Positions 16,620-28,421 of a DNA stretch of 53,204 bases are shown here, in pieces. Below the pieces are notes generated by a model that saw nothing but the letters and a program-made list of their open reading frames with translations, ran no database searches and had not been told where the DNA came from. Source of the stretch: Anaerolineae bacterium (GTDB lineage Bacteria > Chloroflexota > Anaerolineae > JAADDB01); NCBI GenBank assembly GCA_015486845.1, contig WFQU01000098.1, positions 1 to 53,204 of the forward strand. The letters run 5' to 3'. Numbering within the stretch: position 1 is the first letter of the stretch; every line of letters starts with the position of its first letter. The translations under genes were made by a program, and so were the position numbers.

Positions 16620-16680
16620 AAGTATCGCCTTTCGATTCAGCAATTCCAAATTTAACGCGGAGTGCAGAAACAGATTTAAG

Positions 16681-16835
16681 TAGGACTTACGCAGTTGAAC
16701 GTCAAAGCCCACAAACTGTCATCGCGAGGCGGTCGAAGCGTGCCAAAGCGAACCCCCATACCGCCTTGGAGATTGCTTCGCCCCCCCCTACGGGGCTCGC
16801 AATGACAGTTGCCTGGCTGAACTGCGTAACTCCTA
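16681..16835. mobile_element. MITE, 155 bp, with terminal inverted repeats and 4-bp target duplication
   Basis: The ends TAGGACTTACGCAGTT and AACTGCGTAACTCCTA are imperfect inverted repeats of about 16-20 bp. The element is flanked by TAAG on both sides (16677-16680 and 16836-16839). An inner inverted repeat (ACTGTCATCGCGAG / CTCGCAATGACAGT) makes nearly the whole element one hairpin. No ORF is present, so it must be moved by a transposase encoded elsewhere. Confidence 0.8.
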
Positions 16836-17056: not shown

Positions 17057-17085
17057 TTGCCAAGTTTATGCTTCTATGCGATAAT
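17057..17085 (+). promoter_or_regulatory. Probable promoter of the NTPase-ECF unit
   Basis: TTGCCA and GATAAT are separated by exactly 17 bases. Transcription would start near 17092 and give a leader of about 266 bases containing the riboswitch-like element and terminator. Confidence 0.5.
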
Positions 17086-17161
17086 TTTCGTGTTCACACA
17101 AAAGGGGATAATGAGCCAGCTTATCCCGATATAGTTACAAAAAACGAATATTAGAACGACT

Positions 17162-17295
17162 CCGAGCTTGTCCGCCTAAGGGCGTAATATCTATGGCTGG
17201 CAAGCCGCACCCGGCCAAGCGCCGGGGGTGCCAAACCTGGCATCACAGGTCAACAAGGAAACGCGTTGGCCCCCCGAATTTGGAAAGGAGCTCGG
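17162..17295 (+). promoter_or_regulatory. Structured leader, candidate molybdenum-cofactor (Moco) riboswitch
   Basis: The closing stem CCGAGCT (17162-17168) / AGCTCGG (17289-17295) encloses several hairpins: CGCC-TAAG-GGCG, GCACCCGGC/GCCGG..GGGTGC, ACCTG/CAGGT, and GGTCAAC-(10)-GTTGGCC. The end GTTGGCCCCCCGAATTTGGAAAGGAG has the same 7-10-7 stem layout and the same TGGAAAGG segment as the E. coli moaA leader that I remember. The 5' half aligns less well. An intrinsic terminator follows 30 bases later, the arrangement of a transcription-attenuating riboswitch. The structured-leader claim is strong; the Moco assignment is moderate. Confidence 0.5.
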
Positions 17296-17325
17296 TCAAT
17301 GCGCCAGATGGTGCAATTTGCCCAG

Positions 17326-17356
17326 CCGTCCTTTGCCGGAAAAAGGACGGTTTTTT
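17326..17356 (+). terminator. Leader terminator overlapping the SD of the NTPase gene
   Basis: CCGTCCTTT (17326-17334) pairs with AAAGGACGG (17342-17350), followed by six T and then the GTG start at 17358. The 3' arm contains AAGGA, the only SD-like sequence for that start. The hairpin could therefore block both elongation and translation. Confidence 0.85.
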
Positions 17357-17357
17357 C

Positions 17358-17924
17358 GTGGACATAGAACCTTCCGGCCAAATTGTAATGGTGACCGGCA
17401 GCATCAATGCCGGCAAAACGACATTCTGTCAATACGCTGTGCACACGGCCAGAAAAACGGGAATCCGCGTAGCAGGACTTCTTTCGCGTGGCGTTTGGTC
17501 ACAAGGACAAAAAGTCGGCGTCACGATAGAAAACCTCAGCACTGGTGTGCGCTGGCCATTTGCGCACAGCCAACAGACTTTTCCCGGCCCCTCATTCGGA
17601 CGTTTCTCCTTTTCCCAACAAACGATTGATCAGGCTAACAACTATTTAAACGACCTCCGTACTATCATCATCGACCTACTCATTATCGATGAGATCGGCC
17701 CGCTGGAATGCACGCAAGGGGAAGGACTACAAGCGGTGTGGCCGCTCCTGGCCGGAGGGCAATACCGAACAGCGATCATCACAGTACGACCGCGGCTTAT
17801 TCCAGTCTTGCAAGAACGTTGCGGTACAGCCATCAAAGGCGTACTATCAGCCGAAAACAGTACCCAACAACAATTATGGGATGACTATCTACGATTAACC
17901 AGTTTTCAGGGGCGTGATGCATGA
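17358..17924 (+). CDS. Nucleoside-triphosphatase, THEP1 family (NTPase_1)
   Basis: A protein of 188 residues from GTG 17358. The track's start at 17193 would translate the leader structure, so it is rejected. Walker A GSINAGKTT is at about residues 14-22 and Walker B LLIIDEIGPLEC in the middle, with the DEIGPLE motif characteristic of THEP1 NTPases. Members hydrolyse NTPs in vitro, but their cellular role is unsettled. It is first in a unit with a complete ECF transporter and overlaps the ATPase gene by ATGA. That coupling suggests it acts in uptake or first use of the transported compound. Confidence 0.88.
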   Translation: MDIEPSGQIVMVTGSINAGKTTFCQYAVHTARKTGIRVAGLLSRGVWSQGQKVGVTIENLSTGVRWPFAHSQQTFPGPSFGRFSFSQQTIDQANNYLNDLRTIIIDLLIIDEIGPLECTQGEGLQAVWPLLAGGQYRTAIITVRPRLIPVLQERCGTAIKGVLSAENSTQQQLWDDYLRLTSFQGRDA

Positions 17925-19501
17925 TTGTCGCCGAAAAAATGTCCTTCTCCTACGGAAAGCACGAGGTGTTACACGACATTTCATTACAAATCGCCGACGG
18001 TGCGTTTGTGTTAATCAGCGGTCCTTCCGGCAGCGGCAAGAGCACTTTAGCACGAACTTTCAACGGCTTGGCTTTCCAGACACAGCGGGGCGGAAAGATG
18101 ACCGGCGCACTACACGTGGACGGATTAAATGTGCGCCAGCAAGAAATCAGTGCGTTGGCAACACGCGTGGGCATGATTTTCCAAATCCCGGCCACCCAGC
18201 TTTTCAATCTGCGCGTCGAGGAAGAGATCGCCTTCGGGCCACACAACTTAGGTTGGAATGAGACAAAAATCCAACGGCAGGTGGGCTGGGCCATGGAAGC
18301 AGTCGGTATAACCCACCTCCGCCAAAGAGAAGTGCGTACGCTATCGGGTGGCGAAAAGCAACGCTTAGCCATCGCCAGCGTTTTGTCCATGGGTCCCCGC
18401 CATTTAGTGTTGGACGAACCAACGGCTGCGTTAGATATTCCCGGCACCCAACAAGTGTTGTCTACACTAACGGATTTGAACCAGAAAGAAGGACGCACTA
18501 TCGTCATCATCGAGCACCGCTTAGGCGAAGTAGCCCCTCACGCCAAATGGGCCATTTTGCTGCAAAATGGCCATGTCGCGGCGCAAGGTGAAACAGACTC
18601 CTTGCTCGGCAATCGAACTTTACGCCGGCAGTTAGGATTGCGCCGGCTCACCGACGAGCCGCAACACAATTGGCAAGAACTGTTAGTGCCGACTGAGCCG
18701 CCCAACACCAATCCATTGATCTCGTGCCACCACGTCACTGGTGGCTACCAAAAAGGGCAACCAATCATCAAAGACGTGAGTTTTCAATTGCACCAAGGAG
18801 AATTCGTTGCCTTAGTGGGCAACAACGGTAGCGGCAAGAGTACCATCGCACGCTATTTAGCGGGTTCGCTGCGTCCCTGGACAGGAGAAATCGAATTCGC
18901 CTGGGGTCCAAAACACGCCCGAGAGGGAGGGCAGGTGGCACTGCTCATGCAAAATCCTTTGCAGCAACTTTTTTGTGAACGGGTAGACGAAGAAGTGCGT
19001 TTCGGCCCCCAAAATTTCCGTCAATTGGACGAAACCCTGGTTCAGCGCGTGCTGGAAATTTTAGATTTGACGGCACTTACCCGACGGCCACTCTTTGCGC
19101 TAAGTCGCGGGCAACAACAACGGGTCGCGTTGGCATCGCTCTTAACACTTTCGCCGCGTTTACTTATCTTAGATGAACCGACCATGGGACAAGATTGGGG
19201 TCATTTGAGCCGTTTTATGGGCTATTTACAAACGCTCAATGCTCAAGGATTGACCATCTTGCTCATCACACACGATTACAAATTAGTGCATCGCTATGCG
19301 CATCGCGTCCTGCTCTTAGATCAGGGTCGGATCATACTCGAAGGCAAGCCGCAAATTGCGGTGCAAAAAACGGCTGAAAACGCCCCCTATCCCCCAACCT
19401 TGGGGGGAACGCACCCCCCAGAATTGGAGGCCGGGGATAACAACTCGGCCCAGCGACTAAAAGTCACGGCAACACCTGCAAAATCGCCCTACGGCAATTA
19501 G
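17921..19501 (+). CDS. Energy-coupling factor transporter, fused double ATPase (EcfA-EcfA')
   Basis: A 526-residue fusion of two ECF-type ABC ATPases (CbiO/YkoD-like) that powers vitamin or metal uptake. Domain 1 has GPSGSGKST (34-42), TLSGGEKQR (about 140) and LVLDEPTAA. Domain 2 starts near 265 with GNNGSGKST (about 305), then LSRGQQQR (about 394) and LLILDEPTM. ATG overlaps the NTPase stop (ATGA). The last 40 or so codons, after VQKTAEN, are encoded by two adjacent dispersed repeats (19384-19440 and 19452-19556), and the TAG stop is inside the second. The conserved ATPase ends before them, so function need not be affected. Confidence 0.93.
   Translation: MIVAEKMSFSYGKHEVLHDISLQIADGAFVLISGPSGSGKSTLARTFNGLAFQTQRGGKMTGALHVDGLNVRQQEISALATRVGMIFQIPATQLFNLRVEEEIAFGPHNLGWNETKIQRQVGWAMEAVGITHLRQREVRTLSGGEKQRLAIASVLSMGPRHLVLDEPTAALDIPGTQQVLSTLTDLNQKEGRTIVIIEHRLGEVAPHAKWAILLQNGHVAAQGETDSLLGNRTLRRQLGLRRLTDEPQHNWQELLVPTEPPNTNPLISCHHVTGGYQKGQPIIKDVSFQLHQGEFVALVGNNGSGKSTIARYLAGSLRPWTGEIEFAWGPKHAREGGQVALLMQNPLQQLFCERVDEEVRFGPQNFRQLDETLVQRVLEILDLTALTRRPLFALSRGQQQRVALASLLTLSPRLLILDEPTMGQDWGHLSRFMGYLQTLNAQGLTILLITHDYKLVHRYAHRVLLLDQGRIILEGKPQIAVQKTAENAPYPPTLGGTHPPELEAGDNNSAQRLKVTATPAKSPYGN
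19384..19440 (+). repeat. GC-rich hairpin repeat inside the end of the ECF ATPase ORF
   Basis: CCCCCAACCTTGGGGG-type and CCCCCCAGAATTGGAGGCCGGGG sequence is similar to the reverse complement of 15452-15512. It is translated as a Pro-rich stretch. Confidence 0.6.
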
Positions 19502-19785: not shown

Positions 19786-20400
19786 ATGGCAAAGAAAGGT
19801 TTTTCAGTTCGAGAGTTGGTCTACATCGGCTTGTTTGGAGCGCTTTGGGGCGCGTTGGAAATGACTTTGGGGGCGACATTGCACAATATCAAGTTCCCAT
19901 TCACCGGCCTGGTCATGGGCGGCTTGGGCATGGCAGTGTTACTAACCGGTTATTACTTCGTGCCTAAGCGCGGTGCGTTGCTATCTATCGGCCTCGTCAC
20001 TCTCATTCTGAAAGGATTCAGCATAGGCGGCGTGGTGCTCAATCCAATGATCGCGATTTTCATGGAAAGCTTGCTGGCTGAGATTGGGTTGGTTATAGCC
20101 GGCAGCAAGCTACCAGGCTATCTGATGGCCGGCGGTCTGGGAGCAAGCTGGAACGTCATTCACCCCTTTTTCACGCAAGGTGTGTTGGCCGGCCAAGGAT
20201 GGTACGCCATTCTACAGCGCACGGTCAGTCGGGGCGCTAGAATGTTGGGACTTTCCCCTAACGCCGTCATCGCAGTCATGATTGCCTTGGTTGCCGTGTA
20301 TTTCATCGCCGGCGCTTTGGGCGGACTGGTAGGTTGGACGGTCAGCCGGACCGCGGCCCGGCGGCTAAACAGTTTCGACGAAGCAGAAGCATCATCTTGA
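19786..20400 (+). CDS. ECF transporter substrate-binding membrane protein (S component)
   Basis: A 204-residue membrane protein with about six hydrophobic segments. Helix 1 has the ECF S-component pattern (LVYIGLFGALWGALE), with small residues that would pack against the T component. ATG 19786 is selected by AAGGGAGG 7 bases upstream; the track's extra 56 codons are translated repeat. It lies between the ATPase and T-component genes of one ECF system and is coupled to the latter. I cannot match it to a vitamin-specific S family. The upstream leader suggests a compound linked to molybdenum or tungsten cofactor, but this is inference. Confidence 0.82.
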   Translation: MAKKGFSVRELVYIGLFGALWGALEMTLGATLHNIKFPFTGLVMGGLGMAVLLTGYYFVPKRGALLSIGLVTLILKGFSIGGVVLNPMIAIFMESLLAEIGLVIAGSKLPGYLMAGGLGASWNVIHPFFTQGVLAGQGWYAILQRTVSRGARMLGLSPNAVIAVMIALVAVYFIAGALGGLVGWTVSRTAARRLNSFDEAEASS

Positions 20401-21128
20401 TGAAAGGATCAACAAGCATCCAAGTGGATGCGCCACCTCGCCGGCGCATCCACTTGGGCACACGCGGCTATTTAACGTACTTCCTATTCACACTTTTCGT
20501 CAGCGTGCTGGCGCGGGGTAGCCGTTTGTTCATAGCCATCGGCGTTATTGTTGGATTGACGCTGCTCATTGCGCCCAGTGCGCTGCGCTTACTGCGAGAT
20601 TGGCGCTTCTGGTTATTCCCGCTTATTCTCATCGCCAGCAATCTCTGGATCTTGCCGGCCGATGCCTATTTCCATGGCATCCCTTACGCCCAAGCCGGCG
20701 TGAATCAAGGGCTGCAAATGTCGTTACGCAGCATCGGCATTATCCTGGGCATGCAAGGACTAAGTCGGAGCATCTCCATCAGCGAGATGGCCGCGCTGCT
20801 GGAACGGGTTAGCCGGCCCGGATTAGGGTTCGCTCTCGGTGTAGCCATCAATATGCTGCCACTGCTGCAAGAAAACGCACACAACAGCTTTCAGGCACTA
20901 AAAATGCGCGGCGGCCTGCGCCACCGCAGACTGCAATCGTTGCGCCTACTTTTCATCAGCGTGTTAGTCAGCACCTTGCGAGATGCTGAAGATATTGTCG
21001 CCGCCGCCCAGGCACGCGCCTTTCGCCCCGACCAGGCCCAACGGCAAGCATTAATAACTAGTGACCAAGACAAACCCCTGGCTATTGGCCTCATCTTGTT
21101 AACGGCCTTGCTAATCTGGCCTCTCTAA
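20400..21128 (+). CDS. ecfT: ECF transporter transmembrane protein (T component, EcfT/CbiQ family)
   Basis: A 242-residue scaffold membrane protein of the ECF system. The start ATG at 20400 shares its A with the preceding TGA stop (TGATG). Four to five membrane helices are visible. The two cytoplasmic coupling motifs near LKMRGGLRHRR and AAQARAFRPD correspond to the EcfT segments that contact the ATPases. It completes a full ATPase-S-T set in one operon (17358-21128), so this is a dedicated group I-type ECF transporter. Confidence 0.88.
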   Translation: MKGSTSIQVDAPPRRRIHLGTRGYLTYFLFTLFVSVLARGSRLFIAIGVIVGLTLLIAPSALRLLRDWRFWLFPLILIASNLWILPADAYFHGIPYAQAGVNQGLQMSLRSIGIILGMQGLSRSISISEMAALLERVSRPGLGFALGVAINMLPLLQENAHNSFQALKMRGGLRHRRLQSLRLLFISVLVSTLRDAEDIVAAAQARAFRPDQAQRQALITSDQDKPLAIGLILLTALLIWPL

Positions 21129-25576: not shown

Positions 25577-26788
25577 TCAGCAGTCGGCTAATTGAATGTT
25601 ATCCGCCCGCAACAAACGCAGACGCACTGCATTCAAGGCAGAGCGGGCTATCCAACCGTGGCTCACTTCATCATTGCCATTAAAAGGCAAAGTAGTCACT
25701 ATCGGAGTCGTATCCGCGACCAAAGCGAGGAAGGTCACGCCCGGTTGTTCTCCAGGCTCGGGGAAACGCCCGCCGCCGGGAACACCGGTGAGCGCCAGAC
25801 CAAAATAGCCTTCGCCGGCAGCTTGTTGGGCTAATGTGCGGGCATCCGTCTCAGTAGTCGCCGTCATCTGCCCGGCAGGAACCGACAGCCAGCGGAAGAA
25901 GCCAGCCTGCCACAGCGCTTCCCAGCCGGCAAAAGCCGCTTCAGCGATAGCTGTGCGGGCAACAACAACCTTCAGACGGTTCTGCTGCAACAGATTCATG
26001 ATCACCTGCGCCAAAGTGTCCTCATCCTGGCCGAAAATAGCATCGCCCAATCGCCGCTTAATTTCGGCTACCACGGGCGCCAATAACCGATCCGCTTCTG
26101 CCTCATTGGGCGCTTTAGCTGTCACGCGGACATCAGTCTCGCCTTCGTGGGCAGCCAAACCAACCGTGGGGTTCGACATTGTCTCGAAATCAGCAATCAG
26201 CACATCAATGTGACTTTCGCCTACCCCAACGGTGTGTAGCACGACTGCTTTAATCAGCGCTGAAGGCGTTTCACTTCGTCGTTGCAAATACGGCAACACA
26301 TCGTGAGACAACAGATATTTCATCTCGCGCGGCACGCCGGGCAACGAAATGACAATCCCCGACGCAGCCTCAACGATAAACGCCGGCGCAGTGCCCACCG
26401 GGTTATGGACAACGATAGCTCCGACAGGCAAATAAGCCTGGCGTAAATTATTCTGGCCCATTTCGCGCCCTAAGCGCTTGAACAAAGCCCCGACATCCGC
26501 GATTAAGTCCTCACGCAATTGCAATGGTTGCTGCGTTGCCGCGGCAACCGCTTCACGGGTCATATCATCCACCGTAGGACCCAATCCCCCGGTCGTAATG
26601 ACGACATCGGAGCGGGACAAAGCTGCCTGCAAGGCCTGGACAATACGTTCCCTGTTATCGCCAACAGTCGTTTTGATGTAAAGATTAACGCCGATCTGGC
26701 GCAGCGCACGAGCAATGTCGCGGGCATTGGTGTCCACAATTTCCCCCAGCAACAATTCCGTGCCAATAGAAAGAATTTCAGCATTCAT
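25577..26788 (-). CDS. cinA: CinA family protein (nicotinamide-nucleotide amidohydrolase type)
   Basis: A 403-residue, full-length CinA. Residues 1-170 form the MoaB/Mog-like (MoCF_BD) domain with SIGTELLLGEIVDTN and TTGGLGPTVDDMT, which in homologues is an ADP-ribose or CoA pyrophosphatase. The C-terminal CinA domain (about 250-400) would deamidate NMN. The C-terminal catalytic Ser/Tyr motifs look less typical than in E. coli YgaD, so deamidase activity is not certain. SD AAAGGAG. The MoCF_BD fold does not indicate a role in molybdenum cofactor. Confidence 0.9.
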   Translation of the reverse strand: MNAEILSIGTELLLGEIVDTNARDIARALRQIGVNLYIKTTVGDNRERIVQALQAALSRSDVVITTGGLGPTVDDMTREAVAAATQQPLQLREDLIADVGALFKRLGREMGQNNLRQAYLPVGAIVVHNPVGTAPAFIVEAASGIVISLPGVPREMKYLLSHDVLPYLQRRSETPSALIKAVVLHTVGVGESHIDVLIADFETMSNPTVGLAAHEGETDVRVTAKAPNEAEADRLLAPVVAEIKRRLGDAIFGQDEDTLAQVIMNLLQQNRLKVVVARTAIAEAAFAGWEALWQAGFFRWLSVPAGQMTATTETDARTLAQQAAGEGYFGLALTGVPGGGRFPEPGEQPGVTFLALVADTTPIVTTLPFNGNDEVSHGWIARSALNAVRLRLLRADNIQLADC

Positions 26789-27192: not shown

Positions 27193-27636
27193 ATGGACAT
27201 TTTGGGAATTGGGTTACCGGAACTCATCGTGATCATTCTCTTGGCCCTAATTTTCTTAGGCCCGGACGAATTGCCGAAATTAGCCAAACAATCCGCTAAA
27301 TTGGTGGCTGAGATTAAACAGATGACCGATGAAGTCAATAGCGAGATCAAAAAAGAGACGGCCGAATTAGACAAAGCACTTCCAGCCGAATATAAAGAGG
27401 CAAAACAGGCTTTACAGGAAACAGCCGCAACGGTCAACAATTTGCAACATTTGCCTAAATCCATGTTGCAACAACTAGATCCGACCAAGCCCCCAACGCC
27501 ACCAAAAACGGCTAAGCCGTTGGCGCCAAGGCATAGTACCGAGGCGGCACCAGAAATCGCGGCCAATAATGCCATACCGCAAAAACAGCCATCGACGCCC
27601 TCCCCCGAGCCTGATCAGGAGAAAGCACGAGATTGA
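27193..27636 (+). CDS. tatA: Sec-independent protein translocase TatA/TatB
   Basis: A 147-residue Tat pore or receptor subunit. A short periplasmic start (MDILGIGLPE), one membrane helix (about 8-27), the hinge FLGPDELPKLA, and an amphipathic helix (28-65) define the family. A long Pro/Thr-rich tail (about 95-147) follows. The length and acidic helix are closer to TatB, but with only one such gene here the A/B assignment is open. SD GAGG. Overlaps tatC by four bases. Confidence 0.88.
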   Translation: MDILGIGLPELIVIILLALIFLGPDELPKLAKQSAKLVAEIKQMTDEVNSEIKKETAELDKALPAEYKEAKQALQETAATVNNLQHLPKSMLQQLDPTKPPTPPKTAKPLAPRHSTEAAPEIAANNAIPQKQPSTPSPEPDQEKARD

Positions 27637-28421
27637 GCGATCAGACGACACCCAGCAAACGAGAATTCCGCAGCATGCCGCTGCGAGAGCACTTATTAGA
27701 ACTGCGCCGGCGATTAGTGTGGTCCGTAGGGGGACTCGTTGTCACAACATTGATCAGCTTAGCATTCACCCGACGCTTTTTAGAGATCCTCATTTCCCCC
27801 ATGGGTAATGCCCGGCCCCAATCGTTACGGCCGGCAGAAAACATCCTGGTTTATTTCAAAGTAGCCATCATCTTAGGCGTGCTCTTGGACATGCCAATAC
27901 TTTTGTATCACCTGTTTGCCTTCATCGTGCCGGGATTGACGAAGAAAGAGAAAAGATTGCTGGCCTTTGTCATTCCGGCAGCCACGCTTCTCTTTGGTCT
28001 GGGTGTTGCGTTTGCCTCGTTGGTCATGCTACCGTTCTCGCTATCCTATTTACAACAATTTCTCTCTGATCTCATCCAGCCGAACTACTCTATTGACTAT
28101 TACATTTCTTTCGTCTCTAATTTCGTTCTCTGGGTTGGCTTGAGCTTTGAATCGCCTTTGATTATCGCTTTCATCGCCCGCGTAGGACTGGTAAGCCCTA
28201 AACAGTTGCTCAGCGGCTGGCGCTACGCCATTGTAATTATTGCCATCATCGCGGCGGTAATCACACCGACGCCAGATCCGTTTAACATGACATTGGTCAT
28301 GGCACCGTTAGTCTTACTATACGGTTTGGGCATTCTTTTAGCCCACTTTTCATACCGACCACGGCCCACTTTCGGCGACGAGGATGAAAACACAGAAAAC
28401 AAAATAGTAAACACAAAATGA
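27633..28421 (+). CDS. tatC: Sec-independent protein translocase TatC
   Basis: A 262-residue integral membrane receptor for twin-arginine signal peptides. The N-terminal MPLREHLLELRRRL motif carries the conserved Glu used for signal recognition, and six membrane helices follow. The start is TTG 27633, overlapping the tatA stop (TTGA), with AGGAGA 9 bases upstream; the short distance supports coupling to tatA. The family signature near LFAFIVPGLTKKEKR is present. Confidence 0.94.
   Translation: MSDQTTPSKREFRSMPLREHLLELRRRLVWSVGGLVVTTLISLAFTRRFLEILISPMGNARPQSLRPAENILVYFKVAIILGVLLDMPILLYHLFAFIVPGLTKKEKRLLAFVIPAATLLFGLGVAFASLVMLPFSLSYLQQFLSDLIQPNYSIDYYISFVSNFVLWVGLSFESPLIIAFIARVGLVSPKQLLSGWRYAIVIIAIIAAVITPTPDPFNMTLVMAPLVLLYGLGILLAHFSYRPRPTFGDEDENTENKIVNTK

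Follow-up and report, generated by a model that had tools for sequence, protein, structure and literature searches.

A Moco riboswitch upstream of an NTPase-ECF transporter operon in an Anaerolineae bacterium, and its possible link to Moco uptake

Introduction

Why would a Moco riboswitch stand in front of the genes of an ECF transporter? The Moco RNA motif, or Moco riboswitch (RF01055), was described by Regulski et al. in 2008, and both terminator platforms and platforms with the ribosome binding site in P1 have been described for the class (PMC2408646). In Dehalogenimonas, a genus of the Chloroflexota, such riboswitches are reported to precede moaA/moaC (PMC13390414). The prevailing view is that Moco is obtained by de novo synthesis only (PMC9793310), and the coenzyme-uptake categories of a survey of riboswitch regulons from 2013 include no transporter of Moco (PMC3766115).

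An earlier note on a stretch of Anaerolineae DNA of 53,204 nucleotides (the window), made from the letters alone, proposed a candidate Moco-type riboswitch ahead of an NTPase gene and an ECF transporter, a combination that it did not know for this riboswitch. The pairing is likewise absent from the genes listed when the motif was first described (PMC2408646), and no report of it or of a bacterial Moco importer was found in the open-access literature (subscription papers and preprints lay outside the search). What is the riboswitch, how might it act, and what could the transporter carry?

Results

The leader and its aptamer

The window was scanned with cmscan against all Rfam families at their gathering thresholds and a single family, RF01055, was matched. 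The match covers the complete model (positions 1-135) with 65.8 bits and an E value of 1.1e-13, the gathering score being 36. A permissive scan of the leader alone gave nothing beyond RF01055, and no second RF01055 match was found in the genome of the window (3.28 Mb, 97.9% complete). The closed multi-hairpin element of the earlier note is this match (Table 1). The hallmarks of the class are present in the alignment, in the constrained fold and across 33 leaders: P1 with CUCC/GGAG, the conserved CCGAGC and GGAAAGG core, and a GNRA tetraloop on P4. The P3 region is 36 nt long and forms two hairpins by energy; the presence of P3 goes with Moco rather than Tuco as a correlation only. The folding energy of the element is better than that of shuffled sequences (z -2.15).

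The 33 leaders are Moco RNAs that lie directly upstream of homologous ECF operons in Chloroflexota, Bacillota and Bacteroidota. In their alignment, which was fitted to the structure, 86.6% of the cells pair and covariation is 0.477, compared with 0.145 for shuffled and at most 0.110 for slid alignments. The earlier note had named two outcomes that would speak against its proposal, namely no RF01055 match together with no covariation, or a clear match to another riboswitch class, and neither arose. In sequence, P1-P5 architecture, GAAA tetraloop and P3-region insertion the element resembles the riboswitches of Regulski et al. (PMC2408646). It is a Moco riboswitch of the ordinary, known class, and the novelty lies in the operon that it regulates. 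The aptamer is predicted to bind and respond to Moco.

Table 1. Features of the leader and operon, in window positions
Feature	Position	Strand	Basis
Sigma-70-like promoter, TTGCCA-17-GATAAT with TG extension	17057-17085	+	consensus match only
Moco riboswitch aptamer (RF01055); insertion in P3 region; P4 capped by GAAA tetraloop	17148-17306	+	covariance-model match and leader covariation
P1 5' strand, core CUCC 17160-17163	17157-17163	+	Rfam alignment, constrained fold
5' strand of CCGAGCT/AGCTCGG closing helix (partner 17289-17295)	17162-17168	+	isoenergetic with P1+P2; this sequence only
P1 3' strand, core GGAG 17287-17290; overlaps SD-like AAGGAG 17285-17290	17287-17294	+	Rfam alignment, constrained fold
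Putative 22-codon frame, ATG 17299 to TAG 17365-17367; spans terminator, overlaps NTPase gene start	17299-17367	+	sequence
Intrinsic terminator stem-loop; T run 17351-17356	17324-17352	+	fold
AAGGA in terminator 3' arm, SD for GTG 17358	17343-17347	+	sequence, fold
NTPase_1/THEP1-family P-loop NTPase, GTG start	17358-17924	+	PF03266, E 7e-17
ECF ATPase, two fused ABC domains (YkoD-like layout)	17921-19501	+	domain search
ECF S component; no Pfam/NCBIfam model; YkoE-like predicted fold	19786-20400	+	structure model, fold match
ECF T component (CbiQ family)	20400-21128	+	PF02361, E 1.4e-14

Two folds of the closing region have to be distinguished. In the Rfam fold P1 pairs well, and so does P2 (GCUUGUC 17166-17172 with GGCAAGC 17199-17205). 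The CCGAGCT/AGCTCGG helix, which had been taken to close the element, is isoenergetic with this fold (-87.1 for the helix vs -87.0 kcal/mol) and cannot form together with it; its pairing consumes the P2 5' strand. The helix exists but was rejected as P1; its 3' strand is absent from all 32 other leaders read, so that it is at most an alternative state peculiar to this sequence. The poor pairing of the P2 5' strand, given earlier as the weak point of the proposal, came from picking this competing helix and disappears because the Rfam fold pairs P1 and P2 well.

The promoter proposed upstream matches 10 of 12 consensus positions, and 1 such site was found compared with 0.4 in shuffles. Between an S1-domain-like gene and this promoter lies an inverted-repeat element (16680-16835) with the ends ACGCAGTTGAAC ... 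CTGAACTGCGT and the look of a MITE-like insertion.

Terminator and start codons

The terminator followed by six T and a GTG start was borne out, with a stem of 11 pairs and -16.2 kcal/mol. A terminator of -10 kcal/mol or stronger occurs within 110 nt of the aptamer in 25 of the 33 leaders, where shuffles give an expectation of 2.65. The view that AAGGA in the terminator arm is the only SD stands in part: this site is present, but the AAGGAG of the aptamer itself is also SD-like and is followed 8 nt later by an ATG. In 19 of the 33 leaders the NTPase start codon is found 3-9 nt after the aptamer GGAG, and therefore the P1 3' strand is likely a ribosome site with the terminator inside the coding sequence. 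The window differs from these 19, as the ATG at the equivalent place opens a separate 22-codon frame and the NTPase starts at the GTG. A frameshift or an assembly error in the T6 run may account for the split between the two frames. Unlike known Moco riboswitches, the start codon comes directly after P1 and the terminator is within a reading frame. Ribosome-coupled attenuation is the simplest model; its elements are seen in the sequence, and their coupling is what the model would add. The leader of the window could also form an RNA antiterminator by pairing of AAAGGA in P1 with UCCUUU in the 5' arm of the terminator (-12.4 for the duplex, and -82.7 for the whole leader against -87.1). It is not claimed, as no common complement was seen by eye across the relatives.

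The regulated operon

Domain searches agree with the reading of the regulated genes as an NTPase and an ECF transporter. The S component shares its operon with T and ATPase genes of its own, as in group I ECF transporters. When the NTPase sequence was compared with the PDB, the only matches were to P-loop proteins. The S component matches no family in Pfam or NCBIfam, and its sequence has no PDB match at E values up to 10, so that homology to YkoE is not detectable by sequence. A structure model (pLDDT 94.8, from a 25-member alignment) has as its best fold match in the PDB the ECF S component 5edl (probability 1.00, E 8.7e-3, TM about 0.56), which we take to be B. subtilis YkoE; TmRibU is also among the fold matches. 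The modelled S component thus appears to have a vitamin-type, YkoE-like fold, the likeness being by fold only. In YkoE the thiamine-binding residues are Trp49, Glu77 and Gln95.

The YkoEDC system has a fused ATPase and is under thiamine riboswitch control (PMC5037267). Like this group I transporter studied by Josts et al. in 2016, the window has dedicated S, T and double-ATPase genes in a single riboswitch-controlled operon and an S component that finds 5edl by fold. It differs in that the riboswitch is of the Moco and not the TPP class, the S component is not YkoE by sequence, there is an additional NTPase and the context is one of Mo-enzymes.

Further downstream, a CinA-like protein with a MoCF_biosynth domain is encoded 4 kb after the operon (25577-26788) and is probably CinA, not a Moco enzyme. 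TatA/TatC genes are found about 6 kb downstream (27193-28421); several relatives have TatC/TatA genes immediately ahead of the Moco RNA.

Recurrence of the S component and the Moco RNA

Within the class Anaerolineae, 29 of the 199 genomes searched have homologs of S. One scan of a species-genome collection gave 72 S loci, mostly from Anaerolineae and other Chloroflexota and also from Bacillota, Bacteroidota, Eisenbacteria, Armatimonadota and others; some genomes contribute loci to both searches. Our own covariance model, built from 25 Moco RNAs, gave 28 matches in 905 kb of S loci, 24 of them in the 72 loci, upstream of S and on its strand. With the RF01055 model of Rfam, a Moco RNA was found immediately before S in six Bacteroidota genomes (53-70 bits). 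In a subfamily of S with HKF in place of HPF, a PadR regulator gene replaces the riboswitch in several loci. No S component was found in viral contigs. Weak S matches of 360 aa had been considered as false matches to NrfD, which was rejected: in these proteins the S domain is joined to a second membrane domain, and most of their genes lie beside NTPase or Mo-enzyme genes. A divergent S-like paralog lies by cytochrome genes about 10 kb from a Moco-RNA-linked S in Bacteroidota (L173:4762-5352, L174:15888-16469, L175:4582-5274).

Genes beside S in relatives

The operon of the window is insufficient by itself to place the riboswitch in a Mo-related gene context, which is evident from the loci of relatives. 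Neighbours of S there include molybdoenzymes, FmdE, a TorD-like chaperone, Fe-S and radical-SAM proteins, TatA/TatC, MoeA, XdhC, MOT1, xanthine-dehydrogenase subunits, MobA/MocA-like transferases and a TonB receptor. In Bacteroidota the order is a Tat-signal molybdoenzyme, ferredoxins, Moco RNA, S, T and a TonB receptor, with the NTPase too in several; other Bacteroidota have S fused to a second membrane domain near NTPase genes, MobA-like genes or molybdoenzymes. The NTPase adjoins S in Chloroflexota, Bacillota and Bacteroidota loci, and in one case (L178:6162-7910) a single 582-aa frame joins an N-terminal S domain to a C-terminal NTPase_1 domain in a natural fusion.

In 19 loci (for example L104:3908-4372) a lipoprotein with a molybdopterin-binding Oxidored_molyb domain is encoded between S and T. 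A clear lipobox is present in 17 of the 19, and these 17 have no Cys after it; their role is therefore probably binding rather than catalysis. This lipoprotein is a candidate extracellular Moco-binding protein.

Moco synthesis genes in S carriers

The genome of the window encodes MoaA, MoaC, two MoeA and six PF00384 proteins. It presumably makes its own Moco, and import would supplement synthesis there. Most Chloroflexota carriers of S also have MoaA, MoaC and MoeA. A different pattern is found in other carriers, which are mostly MAGs and may be incomplete. Five genomes (G223, G237, G266, G246 and G280) combine a molybdoenzyme with an S gene that adjoins a Moco RNA, and MoaA was not found in any of them; MoeA and MoaE were also not found in G223, G246 and G280. 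MoeA is kept without MoaA in G237, G266 and G219, and in G219 it adjoins the ECF genes. G270, with a main contig of 3,665,746 bases, combines S with a NarG-type enzyme and a MobA-like gene, and no MoaA, MoeA or MoaE was found in it. G230-G232 have XDH-type genes with S and the NTPase, plus MocA-like and/or XdhC genes, and searches for MoaA, MoaC, MoeA and MoaE found none. As a control, each of these gene searches covered 14 genomes and recovered its family in 11 or 12 of them. The absence of MoaE was dropped as proof of auxotrophy in Bacteroidota, as MoaE was not found even in relatives that have MoaA and MoeA.

Four further Bacteroidota genomes (G254, G257, G260 and G262; L191, L193-L196) have molybdoenzyme-domain proteins, the domains PF00384 and PF01568 also matching proteins that possibly lack Moco. 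MoaA, MoeA and, at the threshold used, S were not found in these four, and S or NTPase genes were not seen near the molybdoenzyme genes.

Discussion

Unlike known Moco riboswitches, the one in the window controls an NTPase-ECF operon and not a moa, mod or molybdoenzyme gene. The best reading, to which we give a probability of about two in three, is that the operon encodes an importer of Moco (or molybdopterin) with a partner NTPase and is repressed by Moco. The cargo is proposed from the phyletic pattern and the genomic context: a Moco RNA is paired with this transporter across phyla, including users of Moco enzymes in which Moco-making genes were not detected, and the pump therefore probably imports Moco, an ability that bacteria are not known to have. 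A Moco-sensing riboswitch would repress a dedicated group I, YkoEDC-like ECF transporter and the NTPase. The transporter would bring in Moco or molybdopterin for salvage, and the NTPase may handle or re-activate the cargo after entry. When Moco is scarce, P1 would open and the AAGGAG strand would become free for ribosomes, whose translation through the terminator (or an RNA antiterminator) would keep RNA polymerase going. When Moco is bound, P1 would hide AAGGAG and the terminator would form.

Could the cargo be the metal itself? Import of molybdate or tungstate is the main rival to Moco import and we consider it unlikely. Elsewhere in bacteria, Moco RNAs are found ahead of molybdate transporter genes (PMC2408646), and Moco feedback on riboswitch-controlled modABC is known. 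ECF transporters for Co and Ni exist, and MOT1-type molybdate transporter genes are found near S in L102, a homolog being present in L046/L107 of G072. However, S occurs in genomes where MoaA and MoeA were not found, and an imported metal could not become Moco there. The vitamin-type fold of S also speaks against a metal substrate, and both the TonB receptor in the Bacteroidota operons and the molybdopterin-domain lipoprotein between S and T suit a larger, scarce cargo.

Less likely again is an intermediate or breakdown product, such as cPMP or metal-free or dephosphorylated molybdopterin, which would be turned into Moco by MoeA and/or the NTPase. The retention of MoeA without MoaA in three genomes, in one of them beside the ECF genes, would fit such a cargo, as would the MobA-like genes retained near S and the P-loop NTPase that accompanies S in many loci. 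Where MoeA was not found (G223, G246, G280, G270), however, the known route could not finish a metal-free precursor. A cargo with no relation to molybdenum, such as a thiamine precursor, with the riboswitch merely tying expression to Moco status, is suggested by thiamine-binding YkoE as the nearest solved fold but is very improbable, as the informative neighbourhoods in relatives, riboswitch-less loci included, indicate molybdenum metabolism and a scan of 13 S loci against all of Rfam detected no TPP riboswitch.

Import of Moco would have parallels in other cofactor systems. The queuosine salvage system QueK-QrtT-QueL similarly combines a riboswitch, an ECF S component and partner enzymes, in that case for salvage of a modified-base precursor, whereas its riboswitch, enzymes and cargo are all different (reviewed in PMC11477304). 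The ECF importers of B12 and heme (PMC5997447, PMC7299338) are a precedent for the uptake of metal cofactors, although their cargo is unrelated and they have no link to Moco.

More tentatively, the S-NTPase module together with the ECF motor, and with the TonB receptor in Bacteroidota, may form a widespread system for the uptake of intact Moco, with some bacteria being Moco auxotrophs and with control by Moco riboswitches that have the ribosome site in a P1 strand and the terminator inside the first reading frame. With a defined S family that lies beside molybdoenzymes in genomes where Moco-synthesis genes went undetected, Moco salvage becomes open to direct test. If true, it would explain how nitrate reductases or xanthine dehydrogenases run without moaA in some bacteria.
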